From the IMG/VR virus record IMGVR_UViG_3300031999_002005, positions 1 through 22,274 of that record: a DNA stretch of 22,274 nucleotides; one strand, given 5' to 3'. Under the pieces are notes generated by a model. It was not told the origin of the DNA, did no database searches, and saw nothing but the letters and a program-made list of their open reading frames with translations. The translations under genes and the position numbers were made by a program. Each line of letters starts with the position of its first letter. Position 1 is the first letter of the stretch. The stretch is from a virus. Positions 1 through 22,274 of the stretch are shown here, in pieces.

Positions 1-129
1 GCCTTCTTCTCGCTGGTACTTGAGTACTTCCTTCAGGTACTTGAGTTTGGTCAGTCCACTGTTAGCTAGGTGCCTTACCTGCTCGTTAGTAAGGTTGCTT
101 GTGTCAAAGTCAAAGTGGTTAGTATCCAC
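1..129 (-). CDS. Small unknown phage protein, cut by the left window edge
   Basis: A leftward reading frame with a GTG start at 129-127 stays open for 43 codons to the window edge. It begins M-D-T-N-H-F-D-F and ends in a Lys/Glu/Tyr-rich helical stretch (KYLKEVLKYQREEG). A GGGGGTGA ribosome-binding sequence lies just upstream, inside the end of the preceding gene, and the gap to that gene's stop is only four bases, so the two are probably translationally coupled. I do not recognise the family. The C-terminus lies outside the window. Confidence 0.6.
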   Translation of the reverse strand, partial: MDTNHFDFDTSNLTNEQVRHLANSGLTKLKYLKEVLKYQREEG

Positions 130-133
130 AGCT

Positions 134-343
134 TCACCCCCTACATAGCCAGTTTGCTATCTCATCCAGCTTCCCTGATATATGCTGCCGCTCAAACTCC
201 ACAGTATACACAGCTCCCTCAGGCATGATGCAGCAACTGATGGTTAGCTGCCTGTACTGTGCCGCCAGCTCAAACAACTGGTGCAAAGCTTGAGCATCCC
301 TGATTGCTTCGATAGTTCGCTCACTGTATCTTGGCTGCTCCAT
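134..343 (-). CDS. Small unknown phage protein (69 aa)
   Basis: This 69-residue leftward gene starts with ATG at 343, preceded by a strong GGGAGG ribosome-binding site. It is the first gene downstream of the promoter at 384-412. The protein is mixed alpha/beta in character, with a helical N-terminal half and a Cys-Cys pair at the middle; there is no signal peptide or membrane segment. Its stop lies four bases before the next leftward gene, suggesting a two-gene or longer operon. I do not recognise the family. The promoter, ribosome-binding site and tight spacing make it a real gene. Confidence 0.7.
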   Translation of the reverse strand: MEQPRYSERTIEAIRDAQALHQLFELAAQYRQLTISCCIMPEGAVYTVEFERQHISGKLDEIANWLCRG

Positions 344-383
344 ACTTACCTCCCTTCGTTACTCATTCTCCATTGCATACCTC

Positions 384-412
384 AGTATACAACTCCATGT
401 TGACAATGTCAA
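384..412 (-). promoter_or_regulatory. Sigma-70 promoter for the leftward genes at 343 and 129
   Basis: Reading leftwards, an exact TTGACA (407-412) is followed by a 17-base spacer and TATACT (384-389, five of six to consensus). It lies about 40 bases upstream of the ATG at 343. The -35 box is half of the perfect inverted repeat GTTGACA-A-TGTCAAC at 399-413. Confidence 0.75.
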
Positions 413-413
413 C
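399..413. promoter_or_regulatory. Candidate operator: 7+1+7 inverted repeat over the -35 box
   Basis: GTTGACA, one central A, then TGTCAAC is a perfect two-fold repeat. It covers the -35 hexamer of the leftward promoter, which is where a repressor dimer would block RNA polymerase. Part of the symmetry comes from the -35 sequence itself, so chance is possible. Confidence 0.4.
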
Positions 414-542
414 TGGTTGGGCCTGAAAAATGATGCTCTACGCACCATAACTGAACACCTACTGAGTTGTTTTGAGTCTGTTTGAACTAGTTTGAAGCTG
501 ACTGGCTGGCAACTAAGCTCAGTCATTTTGCTTCACTAGTGC

Positions 543-1052
543 TTACACTAGGTTGAGTGTTTTGGCGAGCCGCATCCTAATGCTGAACACTTTGTTCCCG
601 TCGCCCTTAGCATCAGCATACAGCTCATTCCAGGTTTTGCCAGTTTCTGCTTCAGCAACCTCATCACCGTGCTCTTTGAGCAGTTCAGCGGTACTAGCGA
701 ACTTTTTGCCTTTGCCTGCATGAGTTCCACCAGTGCCACCAGCACTTTGACGCTTAATCAGCCTGCAGCTCGTGATACTCTCTTCAAAGTCTTGACTGTA
801 CCACACTCCCTCAGCAGCATCCAGCTCACCTTTGTCGTAAGCTTCAGCTACTACCGCATCAATAGCGGACTTGAGCTTGAGAGTGATACTGGCCAGGGCA
901 GCGAGCTTCGCATCATGGGCAGCTTTTTCAGCTCCAGCTTGCTGTGTCACAATCTGCTTAGAGATTGCAGCTACAGCTCGCATATCGCCCTTGTCAAACG
1001 CTGCGTCCAGTTCGGCTTTGAGTTGCTGAAGAGTCTTTAGCTCTTCTGTCAT
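543..1052 (-). CDS. Unknown phage protein (169 aa), Ala/Lys-rich helical
   Basis: The leftward frame is open from 1133, but I place the start at the ATG at 1052. A strong GGAGGTG ribosome-binding site lies six bases before it, whereas the upstream ATG at 1133 has none. The N-terminal half (about residues 1-75) is Ala/Lys/Glu-rich and probably a long helix or coiled coil. A Gly-rich linker (GGTGGTHAGKGKK, about residues 103-115) leads to a compact C-terminal region ending in a basic helix (SIRMRLAKTLNLV). This could be a small DNA-binding or nucleoid-type protein, but I recognise no family. Transcription probably starts at the promoter at 1214-1242, giving a leader of about 150 bases. If the 1133 start is used, the protein has 196 residues. 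Confidence 0.7.
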   Translation of the reverse strand: MTEELKTLQQLKAELDAAFDKGDMRAVAAISKQIVTQQAGAEKAAHDAKLAALASITLKLKSAIDAVVAEAYDKGELDAAEGVWYSQDFEESITSCRLIKRQSAGGTGGTHAGKGKKFASTAELLKEHGDEVAEAETGKTWNELYADAKGDGNKVFSIRMRLAKTLNLV

Positions 1053-1153
1053 CTTGACACCTCCATCATATTTTGTACTTAGGTCAGTGAGTTGTGGGTT
1101 AGTGTCTAATGACGTTGCCACTCCATCAGACATATTCGATTGTACTTAGTGTA

Positions 1154-1166
1154 AGGGTTATACCCT
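1154..1166 (-). other. Small hairpin in the leader of the 169-aa gene
   Basis: AGGGT-TAT-ACCCT is a perfect five-pair stem with a three-base loop. It lies in the predicted 5' leader between the promoter at 1214-1242 and the start at 1052. It is too short to assign a role; it has no T-run, so it is not an intrinsic terminator. Confidence 0.25.
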
Positions 1167-1213
1167 CTGTGAGTGTTCCATCCGTTTCGCTCCTGTCCGT
1201 TCTGTCATGATTC

Positions 1214-1242
1214 ATTATCGCACTATGGGAATCAAGTGTCAA
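1214..1242 (-). promoter_or_regulatory. Sigma-70 promoter for the leftward 169-aa gene
   Basis: Reading leftwards, TTGACA (1237-1242, exact) is followed by a 17-base spacer and GATAAT (1214-1219, five of six). The spacer ends in TGC, giving an extended -10 (TGn). It points at the gene starting at 1052, with the predicted transcription start near 1207. Confidence 0.8.
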
Positions 1243-1616
1243 GACCAGTGAAACGAACTGGCGACCATTGGTGAGCGTTGTGCTAATCCCAGCTCTTTCA
1301 ATCGAGCAATATCTCCCCCATGCTCACGTTCTCATATGCTCATGGTTGAGCGGTTAGGCCAGCGCCATGTGTCCGTAATGGTGCTCAGTCTGCGGACAGT
1401 TGGCAAGCGAACATATGTTCTAATGGGCTGAGGGGAGTGCTTAACATAATGTTTCCTTATCCTTGCCCTTACTGTTTGCTGTACCCTAACACTTAGCATC
1501 CAGCTAATAATTGAGGTACGGTCAACCTACTTTGATGAGTACTTTGTTGTTTTAGAGCTTATCTTGGAAATTACTCAAAATGTAAAATTCAATACTTACT
1601 ATACTTACTATACTTA
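1243..1616. other. Non-coding stretch, no gene seen
   Basis: About 370 bases between the promoter of the 169-aa gene and the end of the 96-aa gene hold no open frame with a credible ribosome-binding site on either strand, and no tRNA. Contents I can point to are a LexA-box-like palindrome (1409-1420), repeats of ATGCTCA (1320-1326 and 1337-1343) and three copies of ATACTTACT at its right edge. I could not find an intrinsic terminator for the leftward transcript that ends here. Base use between about 1150 and 1440 looks somewhat more CpG-rich than in the surrounding genes. Confidence 0.5.
1409..1420. promoter_or_regulatory. LexA-box-like palindrome GAACATATGTTC
   Basis: A perfect 12-base palindrome in the context CGAAC-ATAT-GTTCT fits the GAAC-N4-GTTC LexA (SOS) box known from Bacillus and other Gram-positive-type hosts at all but one position of the longer consensus. 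No good promoter or start codon overlaps it, so a role in SOS control of a neighbouring leftward gene is only a possibility. Confidence 0.35.
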
Positions 1617-1618
1617 CT
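1592..1618. repeat. Three tandem copies of the 9-mer ATACTTACT
   Basis: Copies at 1592-1600, 1601-1609 and 1610-1618 are identical. A partial copy (AGTTACT) follows at 1619-1625. The array overlaps the stop codon (1617-1619) of the leftward 96-aa gene. It may be slippage-derived or a small set of protein-binding sites. Confidence 0.8.
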
Positions 1619-1907
1619 AGTTACTAGGTGGGGTGGTAGACCGCTTGTCGCCCTGCAGCTCTAGCACCTTATGAATAGTGGTGTGGATATACTCCAGAGT
1701 CTCTGCAGCGATACGGCCAAGCATGATGTCAGTCCCGAGGGGAACTACGATTACGTTGGAGTGAGTCAAGCTAGCAATCTGCTGTACAGCTTGCGGAGGT
1801 AGCTGTGGTACTCCAACTGGTACCTGTATCACTACCAGCCCAACTTGGCTTATGAGTGGTCTTCCATCAGGCCCATACACTAGCTTGTTCCCATTTCCAC
1901 TTGTCAC
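1617..1907 (-). CDS. Unknown phage protein (96 aa)
   Basis: The leftward gene starts with GTG at 1907, directly after the TAA of the preceding gene (TAAGTG). An AGGAGG ribosome-binding site lies six bases before it, which fixes this start. The protein has a short polar N-terminus with GPDGRPL, a Val/Pro-rich middle (VVIQVPVGVPQLPP) and a helical C-terminal half containing HTTIHKVLELQ. There is no convincing membrane helix because prolines break the hydrophobic stretch. I recognise no family. It is the last gene of the leftward operon that begins at the divergent promoter (2693-2722). Confidence 0.7.
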   Translation of the reverse strand: MTSGNGNKLVYGPDGRPLISQVGLVVIQVPVGVPQLPPQAVQQIASLTHSNVIVVPLGTDIMLGRIAAETLEYIHTTIHKVLELQGDKRSTTPPSN

Positions 1908-2219
1908 TTACTTCCTCCTACTGTTCCTATCTATTAGTTCCTTAGCTTTCCACAGTCTGCTCAGCTTCTCTTTAGCACCTGGAGTACACTCTACCAAGTT
2001 GTGATAAGCTTCCTCTATCCCCTTATATCTCAGCTCAGTACCAAACTTAAATGCTTCATCCCAGCTCCAGGGTATCAGTACAGGTACATTACAGAACTTG
2101 CATATCCAAGTGCTCTTCTTATCCACTGTTACATACCAGTGAGCTCCACTCTCACTCTGTGGACAGTGAGCATCTGGGTATGCTATTCCATTCTGGTTGA
2201 TAGCTCGTTTCTTTACCAT
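1908..2219 (-). CDS. Zinc-ribbon-like small phage protein (103 aa)
   Basis: The leftward gene starts with ATG at 2219 behind an AAGGAAC ribosome-binding site. Cys19, His27, Cys40 and Cys43 (CP...H...CKFC) are spaced like the four ligands of a small zinc ribbon, with Trp and Tyr between them. The rest is a helical, basic tail ending NSRRK. Proteins of this kind usually bind nucleic acid or a protein partner; no specific function can be given. It is sandwiched between the 140-aa zinc-finger gene and the 96-aa gene in one operon. Confidence 0.7.
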   Translation of the reverse strand: MVKKRAINQNGIAYPDAHCPQSESGAHWYVTVDKKSTWICKFCNVPVLIPWSWDEAFKFGTELRYKGIEEAYHNLVECTPGAKEKLSRLWKAKELIDRNSRRK

Positions 2220-2234
2220 TAGCTTGTTCCTTTG

Positions 2235-2657
2235 TTACCAATCCTTAGGTGCTCCTCCATAAACTTCTATCTCGCTCCGCAGCTCAGCTAGCATAGCACC
2301 TAGATGAATAATACGGTCAACATTTTGAGACTCAGCTACCTTGACTCTCTCTAACTTGATTCTCTGTACTACTGCAGCCCTTCTCCTCATTATCTTGAGC
2401 CTATTGACTCGGGTCTCATCAGTCATAGGTTGTCGCTTTCTTCCTCTCGTCTCCACTCTAGGATTGTTCTCAATATGCTGTATGCCTCTCTCTATCCAGC
2501 AGTTAGCATGGAACCTCATCTTGAACGGCCAGTTGACTGCGTTTCCATCTCTCTTTCGCCAGTACTTACACACTACCATATAGTCATTATTCTCTATTGG
2601 CTTCTCACAGTGGTAGCACTTGGCAGTCTTCCTGCACTTGGTCAGCCATACGTCCAC
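2235..2657 (-). CDS. Zinc-finger-like phage protein (140 aa)
   Basis: The first gene of the leftward operon uses a GTG start at 2657, because a TAG stop lies three codons upstream in frame and no later start fits. A GGAG sequence lies about 13 bases upstream, rather far. Cys14-x2-Cys17 and His50-x2-Cys53 form a CxxC...HxxC pattern like treble-clef or PARP-type zinc fingers (TAKCYHCEKPI and RFHANCW). From about residue 68 the protein becomes strongly basic and helical (RGRKRQP, RRRAAVVQRIKLERVKV). The layout suggests a DNA- or RNA-binding protein, perhaps a regulator of the divergent late operon, but this is inference from position. Confidence 0.75.
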   Translation of the reverse strand: MDVWLTKCRKTAKCYHCEKPIENNDYMVVCKYWRKRDGNAVNWPFKMRFHANCWIERGIQHIENNPRVETRGRKRQPMTDETRVNRLKIMRRRAAVVQRIKLERVKVAESQNVDRIIHLGAMLAELRSEIEVYGGAPKDW

Positions 2658-2692
2658 TTGTCTCTAACTGCTCCTTCTTTATCCTTATATAT

Positions 2693-2722
2693 ATTATATC
2701 ACTCTCCATATCCCAGTGTCAA
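2693..2722 (-). promoter_or_regulatory. Sigma-70 promoter for the leftward zinc-finger operon
   Basis: Reading leftwards, TTGACA (2717-2722, exact) is followed by an 18-base spacer ending in TGA and an exact TATAAT (2693-2698). The start at 2657 lies about 35 bases downstream of the -10 box. The spacer contains CTGGGATATGG, which recurs in the promoter at 13256. Confidence 0.8.
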
Positions 2723-2755
2723 TACAGTAATAGAGTAGAGGTATATATATGTAAA

Positions 2756-2769
2756 TAGATATATATCTA
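2756..2769. promoter_or_regulatory. 14-base palindrome between the divergent promoters
   Basis: TAGATATATATCTA is perfectly two-fold symmetric and sits between the -35 boxes of the two divergent promoters (2717-2722 and 2800-2805). It is a candidate operator for a factor controlling both directions. Its AT-richness raises the odds of a chance palindrome. Confidence 0.4.
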
Positions 2770-2799
2770 ACTGTTATATGGTTTAATTTATTATATATA

Positions 2800-2828
2800 T
2801 TGACACCCAGCTACTACTGTGATATAAT
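2800..2828 (+). promoter_or_regulatory. Strong sigma-70 promoter for the rightward late operon
   Basis: Exact TTGACA (2800-2805), a 17-base spacer ending in TGA (extended -10), then exact TATAAT (2823-2828). An A/T-only stretch directly upstream (about 2781-2799) could act as an UP element. It lies about 20 bases before the start at 2851 and is the best promoter in the window. Confidence 0.85.
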
Positions 2829-2850
2829 GTAAGTATGATGGGAGAACTAT

Positions 2851-3525
2851 ATGCAAGAAGATAACGGTGCTAACAAGCTTGACACTAACGCTGAGATAAT
2901 CGCTCCTGAAGAGGCTAGACGAGTACAGGCTGTAGCAGCTAGACATGAAGTTACTCAAGAGGAACAGATAGCTCAGTCTCTCATCCCTTACAACCATGAT
3001 GATGCTAGAGCAAAGTATCTTGGCTACCGCTCCAGTGGATTCACTACCAGAGAAGCCCTCAAACTGATAGGTTATGGTGCAAGTGCACTATCCATGTGGA
3101 GGAGAGACAGTGAGTTCCTAGCTATCGAGAATGACTTACCAAGATACAGGAAGCAGCTAGCTAACGAATACGTCCACTTGGAATTTATCCGTAACTACCG
3201 CCTAGTACTTCTGAAAGACTACAGAGTCTACCAGAGGAGCCTTACTACTGAGAAAGATATAGAGGGGCACATTCTCCCTATGTCTGACCAGGACCATGAC
3301 TATCTGCTGAAGGCTCGTACTCACTACACTCCACAGCAGCTCCAAATAATTGAGTCACTTATGTCTGGCACTGAGCCTGGTAAGGAATTTAACTTCACTG
3401 ACTTCATTCTGGCAGCTGCAGCTCAGACCAAGAAGCGGGTAACTGTGGAGTCCAAGAAGGCTACATTTGAACTGACTAGGGAGGAGATAACTACAAGCGA
3501 GGAGGCAGCTACCAGTGAGACGTAG
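2851..3525 (+). CDS. Candidate small terminase subunit (224 aa)
   Basis: TerS proteins recognise phage DNA as a ring and feed it to the large terminase. This 224-residue protein is the first gene of the rightward operon, two small genes ahead of the large terminase, which is the usual TerS position and a typical size. Residues about 51-92 (from DDARAKYLGYRSSG to SMWRRDSEFLAIE) look like a helix-turn-helix. A helical, charged middle follows that could be the oligomerisation domain, and then an acidic Thr/Glu-rich tail (EEITTSEEAATSET). The ATG has a GGGAGA ribosome-binding site five bases upstream. The assignment rests on position and fold character rather than a recognised signature. Confidence 0.65.
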   Translation: MQEDNGANKLDTNAEIIAPEEARRVQAVAARHEVTQEEQIAQSLIPYNHDDARAKYLGYRSSGFTTREALKLIGYGASALSMWRRDSEFLAIENDLPRYRKQLANEYVHLEFIRNYRLVLLKDYRVYQRSLTTEKDIEGHILPMSDQDHDYLLKARTHYTPQQLQIIESLMSGTEPGKEFNFTDFILAAAAQTKKRVTVESKKATFELTREEITTSEEAATSET

Positions 3526-3643
3526 TCCATCACCTAAACAGTCAGCGGCAAGTAGGCATAACATCAGAAAGGCTCAGCTCAGTAGGTACAGACGGACTGA
3601 GCCACGCAGTCTAGGGCGAATGCGAAAGAGAGGGAAGTACTAA
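3515..3643 (+). CDS. Very basic 42-aa phage peptide overlapping the TerS end
   Basis: A GTG start at 3515 opens a 42-codon frame that overlaps the last 11 bases of the preceding gene and ends with TAA at 3641-3643. GGAGG lies nine bases upstream. About 15 of 42 residues are Arg or Lys, with the stretch SPKQSAASRHNIRKAQLSR followed by MRKRGKY at the end. Short basic proteins with this kind of KQxAAxRxNIRKAQ pattern occur in many phage head modules. The likely role is binding DNA or RNA. It is easy to miss because of its length and GTG start; the ribosome-binding site and tight fit between neighbours support it. Confidence 0.6.
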   Translation: MRRSPSPKQSAASRHNIRKAQLSRYRRTEPRSLGRMRKRGKY

Positions 3644-3679
3644 CTAACTAATACTAGCTTCTGTGTATGGGAGGTTACT

Positions 3680-3895
3680 ATGGCAGAGAAGTGGATAGCT
3701 AAGGCAATCAAGCGACCTGGAGCCTTAACTAGAAAGGCAAAAGCCGCTGGTATGACTACCAAGCAGTATGCTCGAGCTCATAAGTCAAGTAAGGGAACTA
3801 CAGGTAGGCAATCTAGACTGGCTATCACTCTATCCAAAATGCCTAAGAGGGGAAGTAAATCAGCTACTAAGAGAGCAAGGAAAGTGAGGAGATAA
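3680..3895 (+). CDS. Conserved basic small phage protein (71 aa)
   Basis: This 71-residue protein starts with ATG behind GGGAGG. It carries 23 Lys/Arg and begins with the characteristic run KWIAKAIKRPGALTRKAKAA, followed by GMTTKQYARAH and GTTGRQSRLAITL. Proteins with this layout recur in phage genomes next to terminase or portal genes; their function is not established to my knowledge. The charge suggests binding to packaged DNA or to the packaging complex. Its stop (TAA at 3893-3895) overlaps the ribosome-binding site region of TerL, pointing to coupled translation. Confidence 0.8.
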   Translation: MAEKWIAKAIKRPGALTRKAKAAGMTTKQYARAHKSSKGTTGRQSRLAITLSKMPKRGSKSATKRARKVRR

Positions 3896-3898
3896 CAC

Positions 3899-5503
3899 TT
3901 GTCCACTAGTTCCCAGACTAACTCTCAAATGTCAGTACAGGATGCTATGCAACTGTTGCTAAGTGACAGGCGACAGTTCATGGAAACTCTCTATGAGATT
4001 GAGAGTAAAGACCGAGAAGTAGTCCCTCTCAAACTTAATCCCATACAGTCTGATATGTACGGTACTCGTACAGGCAGGGACATATATGTCAAGCCAAGTC
4101 AGGTGGGAGCTACTACTTTCTTTGTAGCCGACTACCTAGCTGATGTAATGACTATTCCTGGTACTACTGCAGTAATAATCTCCTATGATGAGTTTATCAG
4201 TGGAAGACTGTTGAGAAAGGCCTATACTATCTATAACCATCTAGCTCAACGTGTACCAACTATTCCAACGCTGGGCCACGGTTCAACCTACGAAATGACT
4301 TTCCCAGCCATCAACTCAAGCTTCTATATAGCCTCAGCAGGTAAGTTTAGTATGCCTAGAGGAGAGCCGATACATAAATTACTTCTGGATGAGTTCGCAT
4401 TCTGGCCTACTGACTCTCCAGAGAAGGTATTTGCTTCTGCAATACAGCGAGTTCCTCTCTCTGAGGGTACTAACATAGATATCCTCTCCACTCCCAATGG
4501 AGAAGCTAATGACTTCTATGAGCTCTATGTAGCTGCCAAGGAAGGAAAGGAGTTTGGTAAGTCTGTCTACAAGCACCACTTCTACAGGTGGTTTGACCTT
4601 CCTGAATATCAGCTAGCTCCAGACAGTCCATTTGCTCTCCCTGGCGACACTGCACCTGAGCTTACCAGCATTACTCCAGATGAGTCTAAGCTGATGGTAA
4701 ACTGGGGCGTAAACTTTAATCAGATTCGCTGGAGACGCTACAAAATAGCTGAGATGGAGAGCTTACGGAGAAATAGTGATACTCGACTTCTCTTTGGCCA
4801 GGAATATCCAGAGGACGACATCAGTTGTTTCATATCAGCTGGAGACCAAGTATATGACTCAGAGCAAGTGAATCAACTAGCTAAGGACTGTTATCCAGCT
4901 CCTTACCATAAGCTCTACACTGATATCTGGTATGATATGGAACCTGAAGCAACCTATCTCCTCTCTATTGACCCTGGTCTAGGCAAGATAAGTGAGTCTG
5001 TAGCTACAGTGTGGAAGTTCCTGGAGTCTGAGTTTATCCACTGCGCTACTCTCTCTGGACTCTATGCTGGCTTTGAAATGGCTCAGAAGTGTATGCAGTT
5101 GGCAGAATACTATAATGGAGCTATCATTACAACTGAGAATGCGTTGGATATAGTTAGTCACTTATCTAACTACCATAACTTATACTACTACACTAACCCT
5201 GTAGATGGTAAACAGGACACTCGAGTCATAGGCTGGCAAACTAACACTAAGACCAAGCCGTACATGATAAATGAGCTGGCTAGGCATCTAAGTAAAATTA
5301 AGACTCACGATATAAGACTAGTGAGTCAGCTCAGAAATATCCGCTGGGTACAAGGGAAGAGAGGAGAGCGAGCAGTATCAGTAGGTATGGATGACTACCA
5401 TGACTCAGCTGCAATAGCTATAGCCTGCCGCCAAGCTGCTCCTGTATTCAGAGGAGTGATAGGAACAGCAGGCTGGAGTGACTCCTGGGGTAAGCGAAGA
5501 TAA
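3899..5503 (+). CDS. terL: Terminase large subunit (534 aa)
   Basis: TerL is the packaging ATPase and headful or site-specific nuclease, docking on the portal. The expected motifs appear in order: an adenine-binding Q-type region (KLNPIQSDMY, about 45-54), a Walker-A-like loop KPSQVGATTF (65-74), a Walker B LLLDEFAFWP with Asp164-Glu165 (161-170) and the coupling motif STPNG (197-201). The nuclease domain has Asp358 (SIDPG), Glu413 (TTENA) and the acidic cluster DDYHDSAAIA (498-507). The signature GWQTNTKTKP (445-454) is typical of this domain. The start is TTG at 3899, supported by GAGGAG seven bases upstream; the next ATG is ten codons in. Length is normal for the family. Confidence 0.95.
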   Translation: MSTSSQTNSQMSVQDAMQLLLSDRRQFMETLYEIESKDREVVPLKLNPIQSDMYGTRTGRDIYVKPSQVGATTFFVADYLADVMTIPGTTAVIISYDEFISGRLLRKAYTIYNHLAQRVPTIPTLGHGSTYEMTFPAINSSFYIASAGKFSMPRGEPIHKLLLDEFAFWPTDSPEKVFASAIQRVPLSEGTNIDILSTPNGEANDFYELYVAAKEGKEFGKSVYKHHFYRWFDLPEYQLAPDSPFALPGDTAPELTSITPDESKLMVNWGVNFNQIRWRRYKIAEMESLRRNSDTRLLFGQEYPEDDISCFISAGDQVYDSEQVNQLAKDCYPAPYHKLYTDIWYDMEPEATYLLSIDPGLGKISESVATVWKFLESEFIHCATLSGLYAGFEMAQKCMQLAEYYNGAIITTENALDIVSHLSNYHNLYYYTNPVDGKQDTRVIGWQTNTKTKPYMINELARHLSKIKTHDIRLVSQLRNIRWVQGKRGERAVSVGMDDYHDSAAIAIACRQAAPVFRGVIGTAGWSDSWGKRR

Positions 5504-5522
5504 CTAATGAGGAGAAGATACT

Positions 5523-7202
5523 ATGGCAAACACCCTTACTGCAAGTAATATAACTAGCCGTGCACTTACTCTCAAGTCTCACTGGCAAAGGAGAAATACA
5601 AAGTTTCTAGACTGGTACAGAACTCTCCAACTGAAGGACGAACTTGAGCAAGAGAATATGGAGAGCTTTGTGAGCTCAGACCCTCGCTCTGCCTACAACC
5701 TGCTTCTCCATATGCTCAACTCCCCTCGTATTCCTCACCGCATACCTCCTGAGCTGGTCACTCCTGAGCTAGTTATTCCAGCAGGCAACCTAAGCAAACT
5801 GCTTGATGTAGCCTGGCAAGATGTGTTCACTAGATACAGACTCTCTGGTAGAGCTAGCTGGATGCGAGACTTAATAGGCTTTATGCTTGCTACAGGCTGG
5901 TACTCAGTCATAGCAATGACTTCTCAGGATGGCACTCACTGTATTGCAGAAGTACTGAATCCAGGCACAGTCTTTCCAGTCTGGGATGATGAGCTGGTGG
6001 AGTGTGCTAGGATAGACTCAATCTCGGCTGGAGCTGCAGCTAGACTCATAGCTCGTAACCAGTGGAAGGTGGCAGTACCTAAAATTTCAGTACTTATCTA
6101 CGACTACTGGTACATAGAGGCTAACCAAGTGATGAACGCAGTAGTATTGGGAGATGCTCTAGCTAAGCCTTCTACTCCTGAGACTCGCTTCTCCCGTATA
6201 CCTATCTTTACTGCCCCTGTTGGAGGCCTGCCTGATACTGGCATCCTATCTCAAGACCCTGAAGCTTGGAAGGAAGACATAGGACAGGCAAGCTTAGCCA
6301 CTGCTGAATCTGTCTATAGGTCAATGAACAAGTGGTGGACTTTCTCCATGCAGCTACTGAGAGACACTGCTCAGTCTCGCTGGTTTGAGCGGTCTGCTGG
6401 TGGCAAACCTATCTTGAAGAAAGAGGACCTATATAAGAGAGGCTTCATAGCCAGACTAGGCCCTAACGATGAGGTTGGCCCTCTTCCTGTTCCTCCCATA
6501 CCAGTGGAGCTCAGAAGTATGCAGCTTGATATGGAAGCTATGCTGCAGAGAGCTGGCCCTCCCTGGTCTATGTTTGGAACTAGCACTCAAGGTATGACTG
6601 CCTATGCTATGGCACAAATAGCTTCTGGTGCTGCTCAGATGGCGCAGCCTTATCATCAAGGAGTAATAGATGTTCTGACTGACATAGATAACTTCTGGCT
6701 GGAGCAAATAAGAGCAAGTGGCTCTAAGCCTTACGGCATGGGTTTTCCTAAGGAGCTGCCTGAAACTACCAGAGTAACTGCATCTTATGACATACGGATA
6801 CCTGGAGACATCATACAGCGAGCAACAGTAGCTCGTATGCTTGACCCAGACTTCCGCCTAAGCTCCACTAGGGTAACTGAAGAACTCTTCCCTGAGGTCA
6901 AGAATCCTATGGAGGAAAAGGCTCAGGTCATGGCTGACAAAGCTGAGACTCATCCTATCCGAGCCTATATATCACTTATACTTTCTCTTAGGCAGGAGGC
7001 AGCTACTATCAGGAAAACTCCAGGTGGCAATACTGAAGCAGCTAGACTGTATGAGCTGGCTGCCAATAATATCGAACAGAGTCTAGGAGTATCTACACAG
7101 GAGCAACCCACTCAGCAGGCATCAGCTAGGCCTGAGGTAGTGCCTAACCGAGAGCAGACTCTTAACAACAGGAATGGTGAGGCCCCTACTCCAGTCTCGT
7201 AA
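5523..7202 (+). CDS. Portal protein (559 aa)
   Basis: The portal is the dodecameric ring at one capsid vertex through which DNA enters and leaves and on which TerL docks. The gene follows TerL by 19 bases and has a GAGGAG ribosome-binding site. The 559-residue length, an N-terminal segment rich in charged helices (SHWQRRNTKFLDWYRTL), a beta-rich middle with IAEVLNPGTVFPVWDD, and a helical region with GTSTQGMTAYAMAQIASGAA (about residues 353-372) fit portal proteins of large phages. The final 50 or so residues are Gln/Pro/Asn-rich and probably flexible. The call is made by position and general pattern. Confidence 0.85.
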   Translation: MANTLTASNITSRALTLKSHWQRRNTKFLDWYRTLQLKDELEQENMESFVSSDPRSAYNLLLHMLNSPRIPHRIPPELVTPELVIPAGNLSKLLDVAWQDVFTRYRLSGRASWMRDLIGFMLATGWYSVIAMTSQDGTHCIAEVLNPGTVFPVWDDELVECARIDSISAGAAARLIARNQWKVAVPKISVLIYDYWYIEANQVMNAVVLGDALAKPSTPETRFSRIPIFTAPVGGLPDTGILSQDPEAWKEDIGQASLATAESVYRSMNKWWTFSMQLLRDTAQSRWFERSAGGKPILKKEDLYKRGFIARLGPNDEVGPLPVPPIPVELRSMQLDMEAMLQRAGPPWSMFGTSTQGMTAYAMAQIASGAAQMAQPYHQGVIDVLTDIDNFWLEQIRASGSKPYGMGFPKELPETTRVTASYDIRIPGDIIQRATVARMLDPDFRLSSTRVTEELFPEVKNPMEEKAQVMADKAETHPIRAYISLILSLRQEAATIRKTPGGNTEAARLYELAANNIEQSLGVSTQEQPTQQASARPEVVPNREQTLNNRNGEAPTPVS

Positions 7203-13306: not shown

Positions 13307-13846
13307 ATGACAGACCAAAATCAGGCTCCTGACCAGCCTAAGCTAGTTCCTGAAAAGGATTTGCTAGCGTTGAAGGCTGCAAAGGAGAGTCTGGAGCAGA
13401 AGCTTAAGGAAACTGAGTCCACCCTCACTTCCACTGTAGAGACTCACAGGAAGAGTCTGGATGAAGTAACCAACAAGCTCTTTGCTGCAGAGGCTTCTGT
13501 AAAGAAGTTTGAGGAACAACTAAGTGAGAGTGCAAAGTCTGGAAAAGACTACGCGGAGGTCAAAGCTAAGCTGGAGGCTGCTGAGAAGAAAGCTGGTGAA
13601 CTAAGCATTAAGACTCTTGAATATCGCAAGAAGCTTATCGCTGACACCTTCAAGATACCAGCCGACTCGCTCAAGGATAAGTCTCTAGAACAGCTAGACC
13701 TATATGAGGAAGCTCTCAAAGCCGTGCAAGCTGCCAGGGGAGCAGGGAATTATGCGCTACCTGGAGCACCTGGGAATGGAGCTGCTCCTATGCCAGCCAG
13801 GGAGAGAATCAGAACTGGCTTCGATGCTTTGCATCCCAGCGGATAA
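13307..13846 (+). CDS. Head scaffolding protein (179 aa)
   Basis: Scaffolding proteins guide capsid subunits into a closed shell and then leave or are degraded. This 179-residue protein sits immediately before the capsid gene and has the expected features. Its N-terminus is acidic and Pro/Gln-rich. A long Lys/Glu/Ala coiled coil follows (about residues 15-105, with repeated LKAAKESLEQKLKE-type heptads), then a short helical segment with KIPADSLKDKSLEQLDLYEEAL and a Gly/Pro/Ala-rich linker before a basic C-terminal tail (ARERIRTGF). The basic end is where scaffolds often bind the capsid protein. AGGAGG precedes the ATG by six bases. Confidence 0.8.
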   Translation: MTDQNQAPDQPKLVPEKDLLALKAAKESLEQKLKETESTLTSTVETHRKSLDEVTNKLFAAEASVKKFEEQLSESAKSGKDYAEVKAKLEAAEKKAGELSIKTLEYRKKLIADTFKIPADSLKDKSLEQLDLYEEALKAVQAARGAGNYALPGAPGNGAAPMPARERIRTGFDALHPSG

Positions 13847-13871: not shown

Positions 13872-14900
13872 ATGGCAATAGTCGGTCATTTCGAATCACT
13901 TGCCGAGGCTCAAAAGCTTGTTCGTAGCGAGCTGTTGGCTGGTGTAGTGCAGGAAATCTACGAGGAAGGTCAGCTACTCAAGATGCTTCCTGTAACTACT
14001 ATCAATGCAAAGTCACTGCTGTACAACAGGGAAAAGACTCTTCCATCAGCAGCTTTCTTTGACATACACGAGCAAATTCCCTGGACTGCTGACACTAACT
14101 TCACAGCACAGGTAGAAGTGTCTCTCAAGACAGTGGCAAGACAAGATGTGCTGGATAACTTCATGATGAAGACCTACAAGACTCCTAACGACTACAGGTC
14201 TATCATACTGTCCATGCTGAGGAAAGGCTGCATGAGAACCTTGGAGGACAAGATTGTCTATGGCAATATAGATAATGATGCAGCTGAGTTCGATGGACTT
14301 GGTCACTTGCTCTACGCCGACATCGCTGGTGCCGAAGCCTGGGCAGCTGCCAATCCTCAAGCTTATGACATGGGTGGCGTTGCAGCTCCTGTCACTCTCA
14401 AGGTACTTCGAGAACTTATTGATGCAGTCCGACCTAAACCTACCTGTCTTCTCATGACTCGTACTATGCGCAACACTCTCAGTGCAGTAGCCTTTGAAAA
14501 GGGTATTGTGCTGGCTAGTGCTACAGGCGGCGGCCGCATCACTTACGGGCCTGACGAGTTTGGCAGACGAGTAGACTACTTCGATGGTGTACCTATCCTT
14601 ATCTCTGACTACCTACTGGATGAGACTGATAACACTGTTAACAAGGATGATGGTAATGACTCAGGAATCTCCAGCATCTGGGCAATCCGCTTCGGTCAGA
14701 TTGAGGATGGCGGTCTGTGCATGGTGACAGGCGGAGACACTGGTGGAGTGGACTTCTTCAAGATGGTGGAACTACCAGACCTGGAAGACTACGATGCTGG
14801 TGGTATCCGCTTGGTAGCATACATGGCTCTAGCAAATGGCAGTACCAAGTCACTGGCTGTTATACACAGCATTGATGAGGATGGTGTCATAGTAGGCTAG
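13872..14900 (+). CDS. Major capsid protein (342 aa), HK97-fold type
   Basis: This 342-residue protein forms the icosahedral shell. It follows the scaffold gene by 25 bases with an AGGAGGA ribosome-binding site. Family-like features are an N-terminal helix (LAEAQKLVRSELLAGVVQEI), a region resembling the extended loop (FFDIHEQIPWTADTNFTAQ) and the helix RTLEDKIVYGNIDNDAAEFDG with the G-x-x-x-x-EFDGL pattern seen before the A-domain. A later run is GRRVDYFDGVPILISDYLL, a common strand pattern in HK97-type proteins. No N-terminal delta domain or protease gene is seen, so the separate scaffold probably does that job. Confidence 0.9.
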   Translation: MAIVGHFESLAEAQKLVRSELLAGVVQEIYEEGQLLKMLPVTTINAKSLLYNREKTLPSAAFFDIHEQIPWTADTNFTAQVEVSLKTVARQDVLDNFMMKTYKTPNDYRSIILSMLRKGCMRTLEDKIVYGNIDNDAAEFDGLGHLLYADIAGAEAWAAANPQAYDMGGVAAPVTLKVLRELIDAVRPKPTCLLMTRTMRNTLSAVAFEKGIVLASATGGGRITYGPDEFGRRVDYFDGVPILISDYLLDETDNTVNKDDGNDSGISSIWAIRFGQIEDGGLCMVTGGDTGGVDFFKMVELPDLEDYDAGGIRLVAYMALANGSTKSLAVIHSIDEDGVIVG

Positions 14901-15838: not shown

Positions 15839-15875
15839 CTTAAGGGGAGGGAAGGAAAAACTCCCTCCCCTTGAG
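15839..15875 (+). other. Very stable intergenic hairpin (14-pair stem, 9-base loop)
   Basis: AAGGGGAGGGA (15842-15852) and TCCCTCCCCTT (15862-15872) are exact complements around the loop AGGAAAAAC. Three more outer pairs (one G-T) extend the stem to 15839 and 15875. It lies directly after the stop of the 287-aa gene. There is no T-run on either side, so it is not a classic intrinsic terminator. It may be a partial terminator, an RNA-processing site or a 3' stabiliser for the capsid transcript. Confidence 0.75.
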
Positions 15876-15894
15876 AGCATGAGGGAGGACTGGA

Positions 15895-16743
15895 ATGTTA
15901 TATTCATGTGCAGGAGTCGCTGTTTGGGTATCAGATGGGAGTCCACCGCTACCTGAAGCTAACTGTACGTTGTGGCTTAATGAGCTTACTGGTAAGTGGT
16001 CTAAGTTTAATGGCACTTCTTGGAATACTCTACCCACTCCTGTTGAAATCACTATGGACGAAGAGCTAGCAGCTGCTCTGGCTAATATCGAATTGCTACC
16101 TGGCCCTCCAGGTCCTACTGGTGCTGATGGTTCTCAGGGTCTGCCTGGAAATGATGGTGCTCAAGGTATTCAGGGTATTCAAGGAGACCTAGGTGCTTCT
16201 GGTGCTAAGGGCGACACAGGGGATACTGGAGCTACAGGCTCGCAAGGAATACAGGGAGAAACTGGTTTACAGGGTGAACAAGGAATACAAGGCGTTCAAG
16301 GAGAACAGGGCATACAAGGAGTACCTGGTACTCCAGGCTCAAATGGTATTGATGGCTTCCCTAACATTCTAGTAACTCTCTGGCAGGATGCTGCCTTGAC
16401 TGCTTGGACTAATATGCCTGCTGCTGAAACAGAGTTCAGGGCTGTTCTAAATACCAGAACCAAGATTGACCTAACCTCAGCCAATAATAGTAGAGTAATA
16501 GTTAGGATAGGTACTGCGCCTGTAGCCAATGCCAAGATAAAGGTTCAATACTCTACTGACGATACCAATTTCTCTGACCTGTGTTCAGTTACTATGCCAG
16601 CTACAGCCAACAAAACTAATGTGGGTGACTGGACTGCTGTGCCAGGTGGAGCAAAGCAAGATGTGTTTGTCAGAGTAGTAGGAGTAGATGGTAACGGCTC
16701 AGCTGACCCAACCTTTGGACTAATAACTCTAGGAGTGAACTAA
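15895..16743 (+). CDS. Collagen-like fibre or head-appendage protein (282 aa)
   Basis: Three parts are visible. Residues 1-68 form a small N-terminal domain with [20 protein letters not shown], a pattern common in phage fibres. Residues 70-156 are 29 uninterrupted Gly-X-Y triplets ([10 protein letters not shown] at the start, many GIQG and GEQG), expected to form a collagen triple helix and therefore a trimer. Residues 158-282 are a beta-sandwich-like C-terminal domain containing [20 protein letters not shown] and [11 protein letters not shown]. The ATG lies six bases after GGGAGG. Location among head genes fits a fibrous decoration of the capsid or a tail fibre. In phages such repeats are thought to aid attachment to surfaces. 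Confidence 0.85.
16102..16362 (+). repeat. Collagen-like Gly-X-Y coding repeat (29 triplets)
   Basis: Every third codon encodes Gly from residue 70 to 156 of the 282-aa protein without a break. Short near-repeats at DNA level (GGAATACAAGG, CAAGGAGTACC) suggest growth by slippage or recombination, so length may vary between relatives. Confidence 0.9.
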
Positions 16744-16744
16744 T

Positions 16745-16996: not shown

Positions 16997-17000
16997 GCAG

Positions 17001-17252
17001 ATGCCACTGTATGAGTATCACTGTCAGCTGTGTGGTAATGACTTTGACAAGCTACTGCTAGTGGAGCTTAGAGACTCAGTAAGCTGCACCAAGTGTGGAG
17101 CTAAGGTGGACAGAGTAATGTCAAACTTCCAGTATAAGATGTTTGACTTCTCTACAAAAGATGGGGAAGGATTCAAGACAATCCAATACTCAAAAGATGA
17201 GTACAATGCCAGGTGGCGAGACAAGAACTATGACTACAGGGACAGAACTTAG
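17001..17252 (+). CDS. FmdB-type zinc-ribbon protein (83 aa)
   Basis: The N-terminus MPLYEYHCQLCGNDFDKL matches the start of the FmdB family of small zinc ribbons, with ligands Cys8, Cys11, Cys29 and Cys32 (CxxC...CTKC). FmdB-like proteins are found in bacteria and many phages; their exact role is not settled. The second half is polar and aromatic (FDFSTKDGEGF, DEYNARWRDKNYDYRDRT), unlike the Gly/Ser-rich tails of many bacterial members. It starts four bases after the previous stop with GGGGCG upstream and is surrounded by structural genes, so it may help assembly or bind nucleic acid in the head. Confidence 0.85.
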   Translation: MPLYEYHCQLCGNDFDKLLLVELRDSVSCTKCGAKVDRVMSNFQYKMFDFSTKDGEGFKTIQYSKDEYNARWRDKNYDYRDRT

Positions 17253-17275
17253 GGAAAAGCTTAGGAGGAAATCAG

Positions 17276-17488: not shown

Positions 17489-17498
17489 GGAGGAAATC

Positions 17499-17777: not shown

Positions 17778-17786
17778 GAGGATACT

Positions 17787-18221
17787 ATGGCTGAAGCTGA
17801 GAACATTAGACTCTTCCTAGCTAAACGTGGCTACGACACCAAAGTAGAAAAGTCTGGAGCAAACTATACTATAGGTATCAGGGCCAAGTCTATTGAGGAA
17901 GTTTCCAAACTCCTAGCTACCATAGGTGAGCCTGGAAGATTCATAGTGTCTGTAGAACTTTCAGACCTGATTGGAGTATTGAGTGACTCCTTTGGCTTGA
18001 GGGACATAACTAAAGGGATAGCTGACTTGGAGGTAACTATGTCTAATAATGTGAGGATGCTCACTGAAACTGATGATACGCTTAAGAGACAGAGTGAAGA
18101 GTCAATATCGTCTCTTACTGTAAAGATAGAGAACCTTACCAAGGTAGTGAGTGACTTGGTTGCTGATATGCAATATGTCAAGTCTCTACCTTGGTGGAAG
18201 CGATTACTTGGCGTGAGGTAG
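17787..18221 (+). CDS. Unknown coiled-coil phage protein (144 aa)
   Basis: The ATG is preceded by TAGGAGGATACT, identical to the leader of the scaffold gene. The N-terminal 60 or so residues look like a small alpha/beta domain (NIRLFLAKRGYDTKVEKSG). From about residue 75 a long helix or coiled coil follows (DITKGIADLEVTMSNNVRML to SLTVKIENLTKVVSDLVADM), ending in an amphipathic, aromatic tail (LPWWKRLLGVR) that could touch a membrane. No family recognised. It may be an assembly or fibre-attachment protein given the fibre gene four bases downstream. Confidence 0.65.
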   Translation: MAEAENIRLFLAKRGYDTKVEKSGANYTIGIRAKSIEEVSKLLATIGEPGRFIVSVELSDLIGVLSDSFGLRDITKGIADLEVTMSNNVRMLTETDDTLKRQSEESISSLTVKIENLTKVVSDLVADMQYVKSLPWWKRLLGVR

Positions 18222-18225
18222 ACTT

Positions 18226-19950
18226 ATGCCTATTGAGAATCCTGAATTCTCCACCTTACTAGAAGAAGGTGTCATAGTAGCTACTAGGCCCAAGATTAAC
18301 TTCATTGGTGCCTCGGTAACAGCCGCTGACAATCCTGGTGATGGTAGGATAGATGTCACTATAGCAGGCGGTGGCGGTGCTGGTGATATGACTGTGGCAG
18401 TATATGACCCTGCTGGCATAGCTGAGCAGCTTGTTGGTTTGGTAGCGGTTCAGGAACTAGACAACAAGACTCTGGATAGCTCAGTACTCAAAGGGACATT
18501 TACAGCTAGTGGGATAGTGACTCTTCCAGCTATCACTCTTGCTGGCGACCTTACAATGGCGCTGCTTAAAATCCATACTACCAACCTTACTATGTATGAT
18601 GGAGGCGTTGGTGCTGGTTGGACTATTAGGAACGCTGCTGACAGTGCCTATGCTAGACTTACTGCTGGAGACGTTTTAGCTCAAGGTGATTATCTGCTAA
18701 ATGCTTCAACGAGTTACATCAGAACCCAGAATGCTGATGGCTTTGCTGGGTTATTTGGAGCTAGGGATACTGGTGTAGGGATAGTTGAAGTTGCTAGATT
18801 ACAGGGAGCTGCTGACCCTTACTTCCAAATGACTCTACCAGTTGTGCTACTTCCTATCGCCACAGCCTCTCTTCCAGCTACACCAGTTGAAGGGATGCTC
18901 ACTTATGACGCTACCCTGGACGAATTGACCTTCCGAGACTCAGATAGTTGGGAAGTGATACTTACCAGAAGTGACCTAGACAATACAGCTGGTGGTACTG
19001 ATGCTCTGATTACATCAGCACCAACCTCTAATGTCCTGTATGACCACGGAGTAGCTACTACAGGAGTACATGGAGTAGGGGCAGGAACCATAGCCAAGAC
19101 TGCTGATATTACAGCGACTAAACTGGATGATTTCGCTACTCCTGACGATAACACTGACCTCAATGCTAATACCACTAATCATGGTCTATTACTTAAAGCA
19201 ACTGCCCCTGCCGTTGGCCTGTACAACTATGTAGGTATAACTAATGGTGAGACTGTCTACACTAATAAGGCTTTGTTTGATGCCACCGCTCCAACTGATA
19301 GTGATGCTGTTAGTGCTGGTGCAGTAGGAACAGCAGCTACAGCAGCCAGAAGAGACCATATACATAAGGTTGATGCTGCCATTGCTGATGATGCAGTCCT
19401 AACTGTAGACTCTGCTGATGCAGCAGATAATGAGTATGCTAGATTCACTGCCAGCGGTCTGGAGAGTAGGACAGTAGCTGAAGTTATTGCTGACCTACTG
19501 AGTGTTGCCTTACCAGAAGATACTGCCATTATTCTTGATGCATCAATAAGTGCTGATGGGCACTACTCAGGGATTGTCGAGGCTGGTACTGCTGGTGCAA
19601 CACTGGCATTTGGTGACTTAGTATACTATGCAGTAGCAGACTCTAGATGGGAGCTGGCTAAGGCTGATGTGGCTGCTACCTCATTCGGGAAGTTGGGTAT
19701 ATGTGTACTAGCTGCTGCTAATGATGGTTCAGCTACTACAATTCTACTGTATGGCAAAGTGAATGGAGCAACAGCTTTCCCAGCCCTGACAATAGGTGCT
19801 CCAGTGTTCATAAGTGCAGCCACGGCAGGTGACATAACTATAACTGCACCAACTGGTACTACTAACTTTGTGGTTAGGATAGTAGGCTACGGTAATACAG
19901 CAGATGAGTTGTTCTTCTGCCCAGACCTAACCTACATAGAGTTAGCATAA
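18226..19950 (+). CDS. Tail-fibre or appendage protein (574 aa)
   Basis: The N-terminus contains NFIGASVTAADNPGDGRIDV (about residues 25-44) followed by a Gly run (AGGGGAGD), a layout common in phage fibres. The middle is Thr/Ala/Asp-rich, suited to a beta-structured shaft, and includes GTAATAARRDHIHK (368-381), the RxDHxH-type motif seen in many fibre and baseplate-associated proteins. Residues about 431-574 form a distinct C-terminal domain (GDLVYYAVADSRWELAKA, GAPVFISAATAGDITITAP, ELFFCPDLTYIELA) like the terminal heads of other phage fibres. It probably contacts the host surface. The start lies four bases after the previous stop; the upstream ribosome-binding site is weak (GTGAGG), suggesting coupling. 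Confidence 0.8.
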   Translation: MPIENPEFSTLLEEGVIVATRPKINFIGASVTAADNPGDGRIDVTIAGGGGAGDMTVAVYDPAGIAEQLVGLVAVQELDNKTLDSSVLKGTFTASGIVTLPAITLAGDLTMALLKIHTTNLTMYDGGVGAGWTIRNAADSAYARLTAGDVLAQGDYLLNASTSYIRTQNADGFAGLFGARDTGVGIVEVARLQGAADPYFQMTLPVVLLPIATASLPATPVEGMLTYDATLDELTFRDSDSWEVILTRSDLDNTAGGTDALITSAPTSNVLYDHGVATTGVHGVGAGTIAKTADITATKLDDFATPDDNTDLNANTTNHGLLLKATAPAVGLYNYVGITNGETVYTNKALFDATAPTDSDAVSAGAVGTAATAARRDHIHKVDAAIADDAVLTVDSADAADNEYARFTASGLESRTVAEVIADLLSVALPEDTAIILDASISADGHYSGIVEAGTAGATLAFGDLVYYAVADSRWELAKADVAATSFGKLGICVLAAANDGSATTILLYGKVNGATAFPALTIGAPVFISAATAGDITITAPTGTTNFVVRIVGYGNTADELFFCPDLTYIELA

Positions 19951-19960
19951 GGAGAGCAAT

Positions 19961-20161
19961 ATGGTAACAGTAACTTTCACAATACCTGATGCAATAGCTA
20001 CAGAGCTAAACCAAATGGCTGTATTAGCGGGGTATCCAAATGCTAAAGCTATGGTCGTAGCCTACCTAAAGTATGAGCTACAAACAGCTAGAACTCAGGC
20101 TAGAGACAATCTCATTAAGCAAGCTAATCCTGTATCTACTGACGATGCTATAATTAGTTAG
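19961..20161 (+). CDS. Small unknown phage protein (66 aa)
   Basis: The ATG is preceded by AAGGAG. The protein begins with a beta strand (VTVTFTIPDAIATELNQM) and then helices (AKAMVVAYLKYELQTARTQARD), a strand-helix-helix order like ribbon-helix-helix folds. Similar small ITIPD-type proteins are common among phage structural genes, where a regulatory role is unproven. Either a small assembly protein or a DNA-binding one is possible. Confidence 0.65.
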   Translation: MVTVTFTIPDAIATELNQMAVLAGYPNAKAMVVAYLKYELQTARTQARDNLIKQANPVSTDDAIIS

Positions 20162-20168
20162 GAGAACT

Positions 20169-21392
20169 ATGCCACTAACTCTGATAGGAAACAACACATA
20201 CAGATGGACTTACCCTAACGGTGAGACTGTAGAGATAGGTGACGCTGCTACTGGAGTATTTCGCCCTCACATGAAGTTCAATAGGTGGGGAGAGTGTAGT
20301 ATAGGATTAGGATTCCCAGGTATAGCAGCTATGAGTCAGGTAGTCAATGGAGATACCATCGTAGCAGAGAATGCTGGGTACAAGTTGGAGTGGTCTCCTA
20401 CTCCAGTTAGCTCACTCTACAATGAGTTTGGAGGCTACGACTGGAAGATAACTCTGAAGGCTAAGCCACCTACCAATTCATTTGCTTTTGCATTTGATTC
20501 TACTAATGTAGTTGCCTCTCATCAACCTGTACTCACAGCACAGGAAATTTTATTTGGAGCTACTCGACCTGACCATGTAGTTAACTCTATAGCTTTTTTC
20601 CACGCTACAAAAGGTGGAACTGTATCGGTATCTGATGTTGCTAGAGGTCTAACTACAGGTAAGATAGGGCACTGGTATAGGATGCAAGCTGTAGACTCTT
20701 CTCCTATCCCAAAGACTGCATGGCTTGATTGGTCACTTCCTTCAGCTAACATAATAAGAGGAACTATTGACCAAAACTTTCTTAATGCTGCTACATATCC
20801 AGTTGTTTTATCTCCTATAGGAGATACATTTGGCTTTACTACTAAAGGTGGCTCACAAGGTTCTATAGAGAATACTTTCTGGGGGTCAAAAGTAACTGGC
20901 GCTGCTGGTACAGGTGTAAGTATATCAGCATGGCTAATTGTAACAACCACTACTCATTCTACCAAGTGCTGTGTATATACCTATGCAACAAAAACTCCGT
21001 TTACTAATGGAGACACTGAGGCAAAGAATCTAACAACCGCTGTTGATGGAAGTGTAGTAACAACGTTCAATTTTTCAGTTGCTCCTACCCTAACTGCTGC
21101 TACATATGGGCTGATTCCCTGGTCTATAAGTACAACAGGAGACTGCAAGATATACTATGATTTAACTGGTGGTACTGCACTACTATATGACTCCAGGAAC
21201 TATAATGGCTGGCCTACATCATACTGGATTGAATATGCTGACTACAAGATATCTATATACTGTACTTATACCCCACCAGTTTCTGGTTGGACTGGTATTG
21301 CAAAAGTAAGTGGAGTTACTCAAGCTGCCTTAGGTAAGATTGATGGTGTAGCTAAGGCAGCTATAGCAAAAATAAATGGGAGGGCAGTGTGA
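20169..21392 (+). CDS. Fibre-like or receptor-binding candidate (407 aa)
   Basis: The ATG follows TTAGGAGAACT. The protein is beta-rich with many Thr, Tyr, Trp and Gly residues, and no coiled coil or membrane helix. An N-terminal strand-rich part (LIGNNTYRWTYPNGETVEIG) leads into a large middle, then a Cys-Cys pair (STKCCVYTY). The last 32 residues hold three related units: GIAKVSGVTQAAL, GKIDGVAKAAI and AKINGRAV. Similar I-x-K-x-x-GV repeats end many phage tail-appendage proteins. Position after the larger fibre gene supports a surface role. The stop overlaps the next gene's start by four bases. Confidence 0.65.
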   Translation: MPLTLIGNNTYRWTYPNGETVEIGDAATGVFRPHMKFNRWGECSIGLGFPGIAAMSQVVNGDTIVAENAGYKLEWSPTPVSSLYNEFGGYDWKITLKAKPPTNSFAFAFDSTNVVASHQPVLTAQEILFGATRPDHVVNSIAFFHATKGGTVSVSDVARGLTTGKIGHWYRMQAVDSSPIPKTAWLDWSLPSANIIRGTIDQNFLNAATYPVVLSPIGDTFGFTTKGGSQGSIENTFWGSKVTGAAGTGVSISAWLIVTTTTHSTKCCVYTYATKTPFTNGDTEAKNLTTAVDGSVVTTFNFSVAPTLTAATYGLIPWSISTTGDCKIYYDLTGGTALLYDSRNYNGWPTSYWIEYADYKISIYCTYTPPVSGWTGIAKVSGVTQAALGKIDGVAKAAIAKINGRAV

Positions 21393-21589
21393 CAGAAGAA
21401 ATTACTCAGGCAGTAGATAAGGTTATTACCAAGCAAAAGTTGATAGCAGATAGGGAAAAGTTTGCCAAGCAGCTCAATACCCTAATGGAGCAAGCTGCAT
21501 TAGTTCAGGAGAATATTAGCAGATGCAGAGGAGCTATAGGGTATATCAATGAGACACTGAATAAACTAGAGGAGAAGCCAGATGGATAA
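21389..21589 (+). CDS. Small coiled-coil protein (66 aa)
   Basis: The start is GTG in the GTGA overlap with the previous stop, so translation is probably coupled. Nearly the whole protein is a charged helix (KLIADREKFAKQLNTLMEQA, YINETLNKLEEKPDG) likely to form a coiled coil; a single Cys lies near the middle. No family recognised. Its end overlaps the next gene by eight bases. Confidence 0.65.
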   Translation: MTEEITQAVDKVITKQKLIADREKFAKQLNTLMEQAALVQENISRCRGAIGYINETLNKLEEKPDG

Positions 21590-21830
21590 GCTATATCATA
21601 GCTTCCTCTATGTCATGGGCTTTCCTACTAAGTCTGAAGAAATAGGGACTGGTGGACTATATATTACTGATATGCTTCAGCTTCAGAAGCAGCGGTTTCC
21701 TAAAGCTTGGTGGGTAATGAGTATTCTGTCAGTATTCCTATCCTTCTGTTTGTTCATATTCAATATCTGGCTATTACTCCATGTCATAGGTATCAGGCCA
21801 TTTGGTACTCCAAGAAAAGAAGGAGAGTAG
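21582..21830 (+). CDS. Small membrane protein, one transmembrane helix (82 aa)
   Basis: The ATG lies eight bases inside the preceding gene, behind GAGGAG. Residues about 42-71 (AWWVMSILSVFLSFCLFIFN then IWLLLHVIGI) form one long hydrophobic helix, flanked by basic residues on both sides. The N-terminal 40 residues are polar. It could belong to a lysis module (holin or spanin-like accessory) or be a virion-associated membrane protein; there is no signature to decide. Confidence 0.7.
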   Translation: MDKLYHSFLYVMGFPTKSEEIGTGGLYITDMLQLQKQRFPKAWWVMSILSVFLSFCLFIFNIWLLLHVIGIRPFGTPRKEGE

Positions 21831-22019
21831 ATGGATACTTGGATACTGAGCCTCTTTGGAACTACTCTAATAGCTCAGATAGCTCAGGGATATTTTGTAT
21901 TCAGAAGGCTAGGCTCTATGGAGACTGCTCTGAGAAATGCCTGCCCATTTGGTTCCTGTCCACTGTTTAATAGAGCAAAGACAGAAGCAGCTCCACAGAG
22001 AGCAGAGTCTCAACCGTAA
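21831..22019 (+). CDS. Small membrane-anchored protein with CPFGSCP motif (62 aa)
   Basis: The ATG directly follows the TAG of the preceding gene, with AAGGAG as ribosome-binding site. An N-terminal hydrophobic helix (WILSLFGTTLIAQIAQGYFVF, residues 4-24) is followed by a short basic region, then ACPFGSCPLFNRAK and a polar tail. The two Cys-Pro pairs could bind metal or form a disulfide. Probably anchored by its N-terminus. No family recognised; the membrane cluster suggests a lysis or host-envelope role. Confidence 0.65.
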   Translation: MDTWILSLFGTTLIAQIAQGYFVFRRLGSMETALRNACPFGSCPLFNRAKTEAAPQRAESQP

Positions 22020-22029
22020 GGAGGAAGCG

Positions 22030-22274
22030 ATGATTTGGTTAATAGTGTCTGCATTCTTTGGTGGTATACTGGTAGACCTGGCTAGCTGGGCATCTAATAA
22101 GCCAGAGCCATTCAATACTAGAATGTTTATCTGGAGTGCTATCAGGTCATTCTTCACTGCAGTAGGAGCAGTATTCGTTCTGAAGTATACAGCTCCACTA
22201 GATATTCAACAGATAGCTATGGCGCTAATCTTTGGAGCTGGTGGTGATGCTACCATCAAGAGACTATTTGCTGT
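22030..22274 (+). CDS. Holin-like membrane protein, cut by the right window edge
   Basis: An ATG at 22030 behind AAGGAGG opens a frame that continues for 81 codons to the window edge. Three hydrophobic segments are visible: MIWLIVSAFFGGILVDLA (1-18), a second with WSAIRSFFTAVGAVFVLKY (about 36-54) and a third with IAMALIFGAGGDATIKRLF (about 62-80). Small multi-pass proteins with a Gly-rich end segment at the end of a late operon are often holins, which make the pores that time lysis. No endolysin is in view to confirm this. The gene is incomplete. Confidence 0.6.
   Translation, partial: MIWLIVSAFFGGILVDLASWASNKPEPFNTRMFIWSAIRSFFTAVGAVFVLKYTAPLDIQQIAMALIFGAGGDATIKRLFA

Follow-up and report, generated by a model that had tools for sequence, protein, structure and literature searches.

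GATC is absent from all 22,274 bases of the window, a whole IMG/VR virus record that is linear and incomplete (1..22274), and it is lost or nearly lost in most of the analysed relatives in the phage family defined by the large terminase subunit (TerL). This loss has very probably been driven by long-term selection by GATC-cutting type II restriction in the hosts.

Absence of GATC and synonymous escape in the window

Base composition predicts 85.3 GATC sites in the window, dinucleotide shuffles 74.9 ± 8.1, a second-order Markov model 64.0, and 200 shuffles preserving every protein and codon usage 60.9 ± 6.0 (minimum, 46). The earlier note had reported the absence of GATC by reading and proposed the Markov comparison as a check; the count of zero agrees with it under every null. 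As avoidance is defined here by an observed/expected ratio of <0.1 under a composition-aware null, zero sites against 61–85 is avoidance in its complete form. The Poisson probability of zero with 64 expected is about 1.6e-28, and GATC is the most depleted of the 184 palindromic motifs with enough expectation. The loss covers coding and non-coding DNA, as had been claimed, the non-coding part being a small sample of 1,793 bases with no site. Other palindromes are present, also as described before: CTAG occurs 120 times (5.4 per kb), AGCT 302, GTAC 97 and GGCC 33 times.

In the coding DNA, all three reading frames of GATC are emptied via codon choice. Where the next codon starts with C, aspartate is encoded 55 times by GAC and never by GAT, compared with 144 GAC and 206 GAT codons elsewhere. 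Isoleucine after a codon ending with G is encoded by ATC in none of 81 cases, compared with 108 of 316 elsewhere, and an xGA codon never precedes TCx. These frame-specific counts indicate that selection acts on the DNA word rather than on the proteins.

Gene content of the window

The terminase, HK97-type capsid protein and tail genes, which occur in order, assign the window to Caudoviricetes (Table 1). The window covers about half of the genome of a virulent-type tailed phage, namely its structural part; the term virulent-type is used because no integrase was noticed among the proteins scanned, which were part of the protein set. The relatives of 41–46 kb additionally encode a family A DNA polymerase, AAA ATPases and a ClpP-like protease. 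The gene at the portal position has no match in Pfam or PHROG. At the DNA level, no phage record resembles the window and no similar isolate phage was found; its terminase shares at best about 26% identity with those in isolate and GenBank phage records.

Table 1. Features of the window and of related contigs (prefix L or G)
Feature	Position	Strand	Evidence or remark
Whole record	1..22274		GATC 0, CCGG 0
Terminase large subunit (TerL), defines family	3899..5503	+	PHROG 2, E=2.9e-11; 456 IMG/VR relatives
Putative portal protein	5523..7202	+	Position after TerL; adjoins TerL in relatives too
Putative virion protein, 1,934 aa	7214..13018	+	Position kept in relatives
Putative scaffold protein	13307..13846	+	Position before capsid gene; relatives
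Major capsid protein, HK97 type	13872..14900	+	PHROG 212, E=1.2e-40; Pfam PF05065 above cut-off
Tail fibre protein, collagen-like Gly-X-Y repeats	15895..16743	+	PHROG 5073, E=1.5e-27
FmdB-family zinc ribbon protein	17001..17252	+	TIGR02605, 50.8 bits, over cut-off
Core phage methylase	L045:4285-5169		SPPY motif
Core phage methylase	L051:12300-13055		SPPY motif
Core phage methylase	L284:7651-8535		SPPY motif
Core phage methylase	L276:3446-4297		SPPY motif
NPPY-type methylase	L108:5938-6438 (G036:33288-33788)		Private to GATC-tolerant G036
tRNA-Tyr, 87 nt	L053:18647-18733		Relative G012

Loss of GATC throughout the TerL family

The family set consists of the window and the best 80 of 456 IMG/VR stretches matching the terminase alignment. 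Together these 81 sequences contain 309 GATC sites where 3361 are expected (9%). Of the 75 sequences for which 15 or more sites are expected, 38 have none and 64 fall below 0.1 of expectation. A control of 120 IMG/VR loci picked by an arbitrary 15-mer includes 107 loci with at least 15 expected sites, of which 18 (about 17%) have no GATC and 19 fall below a tenth. Complete loss of GATC is therefore common in environmental viruses and far commoner in the TerL family. The Fisher test (P = 2.7e-20) is a guide only, as family members are not independent of one another and exceed the control loci in length and GC content. Within the control itself (L143–L262), GATC also ranks first among complete losses (18 of 107), followed by CATG (5 of 100).

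Near-complete relatives without GATC have lengths of 43,685, 40,883, 42,430 and 43,744 bp (observed/expected sites, 0/143, 0/166, 0/144 and 0/160, respectively). Another relative of 45,776 bp has two sites (2/168), both in or beside tail genes whose proteins are 72–78% identical to those of GATC-tolerant relatives, suggesting that these two sites are a recent import. The loss recurs in contigs of many separate metagenomes; the one sample whose source is named, IMG 3300035698, is from Ace Lake, Antarctica.

These data also bear on whether the absence of GATC could be a by-product of composition or codon usage, or an assembly or library artefact such as DNA pre-cut with a GATC enzyme. The window is indeed unusual in composition, with a general excess of AG/CT and a CpG ratio of 0.31, but nulls fixing dinucleotides, trinucleotides, or protein and codon usage still expect 61–75 sites. 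A cut library is rejected because GATC-free contigs of 40 kb occur in many samples beside relatives keeping dozens of sites. Both the control and the family data contradict explanations of this kind, which are extremely improbable.

Other lost palindromes and mismatch repair

CCGG is also absent from the window (expected, 11 by the Markov model and 22–23 by codon shuffles), GGWCC occurs 4 times (expected, about 18–25) and CGCG twice. Thus, GATC is the clearest lost site but not the sole one: the earlier note, which had described the loss of one palindrome, was right about GATC and wrong about its being alone. The CCGG and GGWCC losses suggest further restriction specificities in the host, and the loss of CpG-containing palindromes may partly be a consequence of the general CpG depletion. 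In the family, 39 of 67 GATC-avoiding relatives exclude other palindromes too, in member-specific combinations of CCGG, GGCC, CGCG, TCGA, GTAC, ACGT and CATG. Strong over-representation is seen for AGCT, whose copies in the window amount to 3.5 times the base-composition expectation and lie 9 SD above codon shuffles; the highest ratio in a control contig is 3.13 and the family median is 2.0.

The breadth of these losses is informative about methyl-directed mismatch repair, which could counterselect GATC either because MutH nicks unmethylated or hemimethylated sites when phage DNA is under-methylated or because escape from repair benefits the phage. Such counterselection has already been proposed for enterobacteriophages and phiX174. 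Like the window, the whole phiX174 genome lacks GATC, and restoring about 20 sites lowers its mutation rate eightfold (PMC5014478). Some family members likewise lose GATC wholly and alone (e.g., G001: GATC 0/143, CCGG 55/76). However, phiX174 is a 5.4-kb single-stranded DNA phage of E. coli in which the loss has been connected with mismatch repair, not with a set of palindromes (PMC5014478), whereas CCGG is also missing from the window and from many relatives, where GGWCC, GGCC and others are depleted as well. Mismatch repair, covering GATC alone, does not account for these losses. Depletion restricted to GATC is found neither in the window nor in the 39 relatives mentioned above. In addition, the family spans many environmental samples, whereas repair by MutH/Dam is found mainly in gammaproteobacteria. 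Mismatch repair is thus quite unlikely to be the cause.

Restriction as the probable driving force

Host restriction, by comparison, would act on each palindrome in the same manner. The uncultured bacterial hosts would carry a type II restriction enzyme cutting GATC; a new GATC arising by mutation or import would leave an incoming unmodified genome open to double-strand cleavage, and such sites would be purged, mostly via synonymous change. CCGG and GGWCC would be purged likewise, and their parallel loss suggests that several type II specificities are probably present in the hosts. The earlier note had already attributed the loss to a GATC-cutting restriction enzyme, an idea supported by the selective loss at the DNA level in a tailed phage, its spread in the family, the other palindromes lost alongside, and the lack of a detectable Dam-type methylase in 48 relatives. 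The host enzyme presumably cuts either plain GATC, as MboI/Sau3AI do, or methylated GATC, as DpnI does.

The latter mode would require phages to alternate between Dam-positive hosts, in which their GATC would become methylated, and hosts in which a DpnI-type methylation-dependent nuclease would cut it. GATC is under-represented in 46 of 46 phages whose hosts have a type IIM GATC enzyme (PMC6286503); a nuclease of Hfx. volcanii targets A-methylated GATC, and haloviruses have no GATC (PMC3622292). Yet the authors of the phage survey suspect that most of the weak methyl-dependent signal is due to ordinary type II enzymes sharing the site (PMC6286503), and two alternating host types would be needed across the whole family. 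A DpnI-type nuclease is therefore an unlikely selective agent.

Selection by type II restriction has precedents. A survey covering nearly 4,000 prokaryotic viruses found (almost) complete elimination of sites in approximately one tenth of the genomes; exclusion concerned mainly orthodox type II sites in non-temperate double-stranded DNA phages (PMC6286503). The window shares with these the (near-)complete loss of type II palindromes in a virulent-type tailed phage; it differs in that host and enzyme are known for the survey phages (PMC6286503), whereas the TerL family is known from environmental sequences and its exclusion is family-wide. The haloviruses PH1, SH1 and HHIV-2 are likewise relatives that all lack GATC, which has been ascribed to host nucleases specific for GATC and CTAG (PMC3622292). 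Unlike the window, in which CTAG is abundant, these viruses are archaeal, of another kind, and also (nearly) devoid of CTAG (PMC3622292).

GATC-tolerant relatives

Tolerant relatives are defined as those with GATC at 0.2 of expectation or more. Avoidance is widespread in the terminase tree, and tolerance requires about nine changes, at scattered tips. G036 (84/218) is tolerant, whereas its relative G041 (2/170) is not; the two are largely syntenic and many of their core proteins are 63–87% identical. In aligned codons, none of 40 GATC sites of G036 is kept in G041, although 21 of these sites encode identical residues, mostly as GACC in G041; by contrast, 23–85% of other tetramers at identical residues are kept. 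Selection on the DNA word is thus evident between genomes as well as in the codon counts of the window.

Avoidance of another palindrome persists in three of the 13 tolerant contigs (L009, GGCC and TCGA; L082 and L107, CCGG); for these, a changed set of host enzymes is a better fit than protection of the DNA in general. More broadly, GATC-directed restriction might be near universal in the hosts of the family, with an ancient loss kept over terminase divergence to about 33–50% identity and repeated reversals marking shifts to enzyme-free hosts; this is a serious possibility, short of a probable one.

Phage methylases

A Dam-type methylase (PF05869) has no match in 48 relatives, and the D12 family (PF02086) has a single weak match in them, to the core methylase of G037. 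This core methylase, of about 250–300 residues with a SAM-binding motif before an SPPY motif, is encoded by most near-complete members of the family, which counts against restriction as the cause of the loss. Its similarity to proteins in the PDB (a putative methylase, DpnA and RsrI) is limited to the SAM-binding part. SPQY replaces SPPY in G039 and G041, a change that is possibly inactivating. As the core methylase coexists with total loss of GATC, it probably does not protect this site. The window record being incomplete, a methylase may be encoded in its missing half.

The NPPY-type methylase of G036 has one weak match in a search of 47 other records, in G042 (24% identity), and it could be what permits GATC retention in G036. 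Tolerant G006 encodes two further methylases. An extra methylase as the general cause of tolerance is rejected, as the tolerant G004, G008 and G010 show none and methylases and tolerance are not consistently associated.

Hosts of the family

The tRNA-Tyr gene of relative G012 includes the CCA end and specifies a long variable arm, a feature of bacterial tRNA-Tyr that points to a bacterial host. Scans of two genome collections (84,980 species) with the capsid and terminase alignments found no close relative, and thus neither a host nor a restriction gene, which counts against the restriction reading; they gave one distant terminase (27%), in a Dethiobacter MAG with no GATC depletion in its phage region (75/84). 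Among 398 genomes from the phylum of this MAG, distant terminases alone were found, at loci without GATC loss.

Implications

Avoidance of restriction sites is itself well known, and its extent over an entire uncultured family is the new aspect. Taken singly, the contig is ordinary for its kind, and the family pattern is the useful part. Paired relatives with or without GATC (G036/G041, L108/L113 and L121/L137) are natural experiments on the rate at which sites return once the pressure has ceased. The palindromes that a phage has lost are a record of the restriction enzymes it has met, and could help to link uncultured phages to their hosts.
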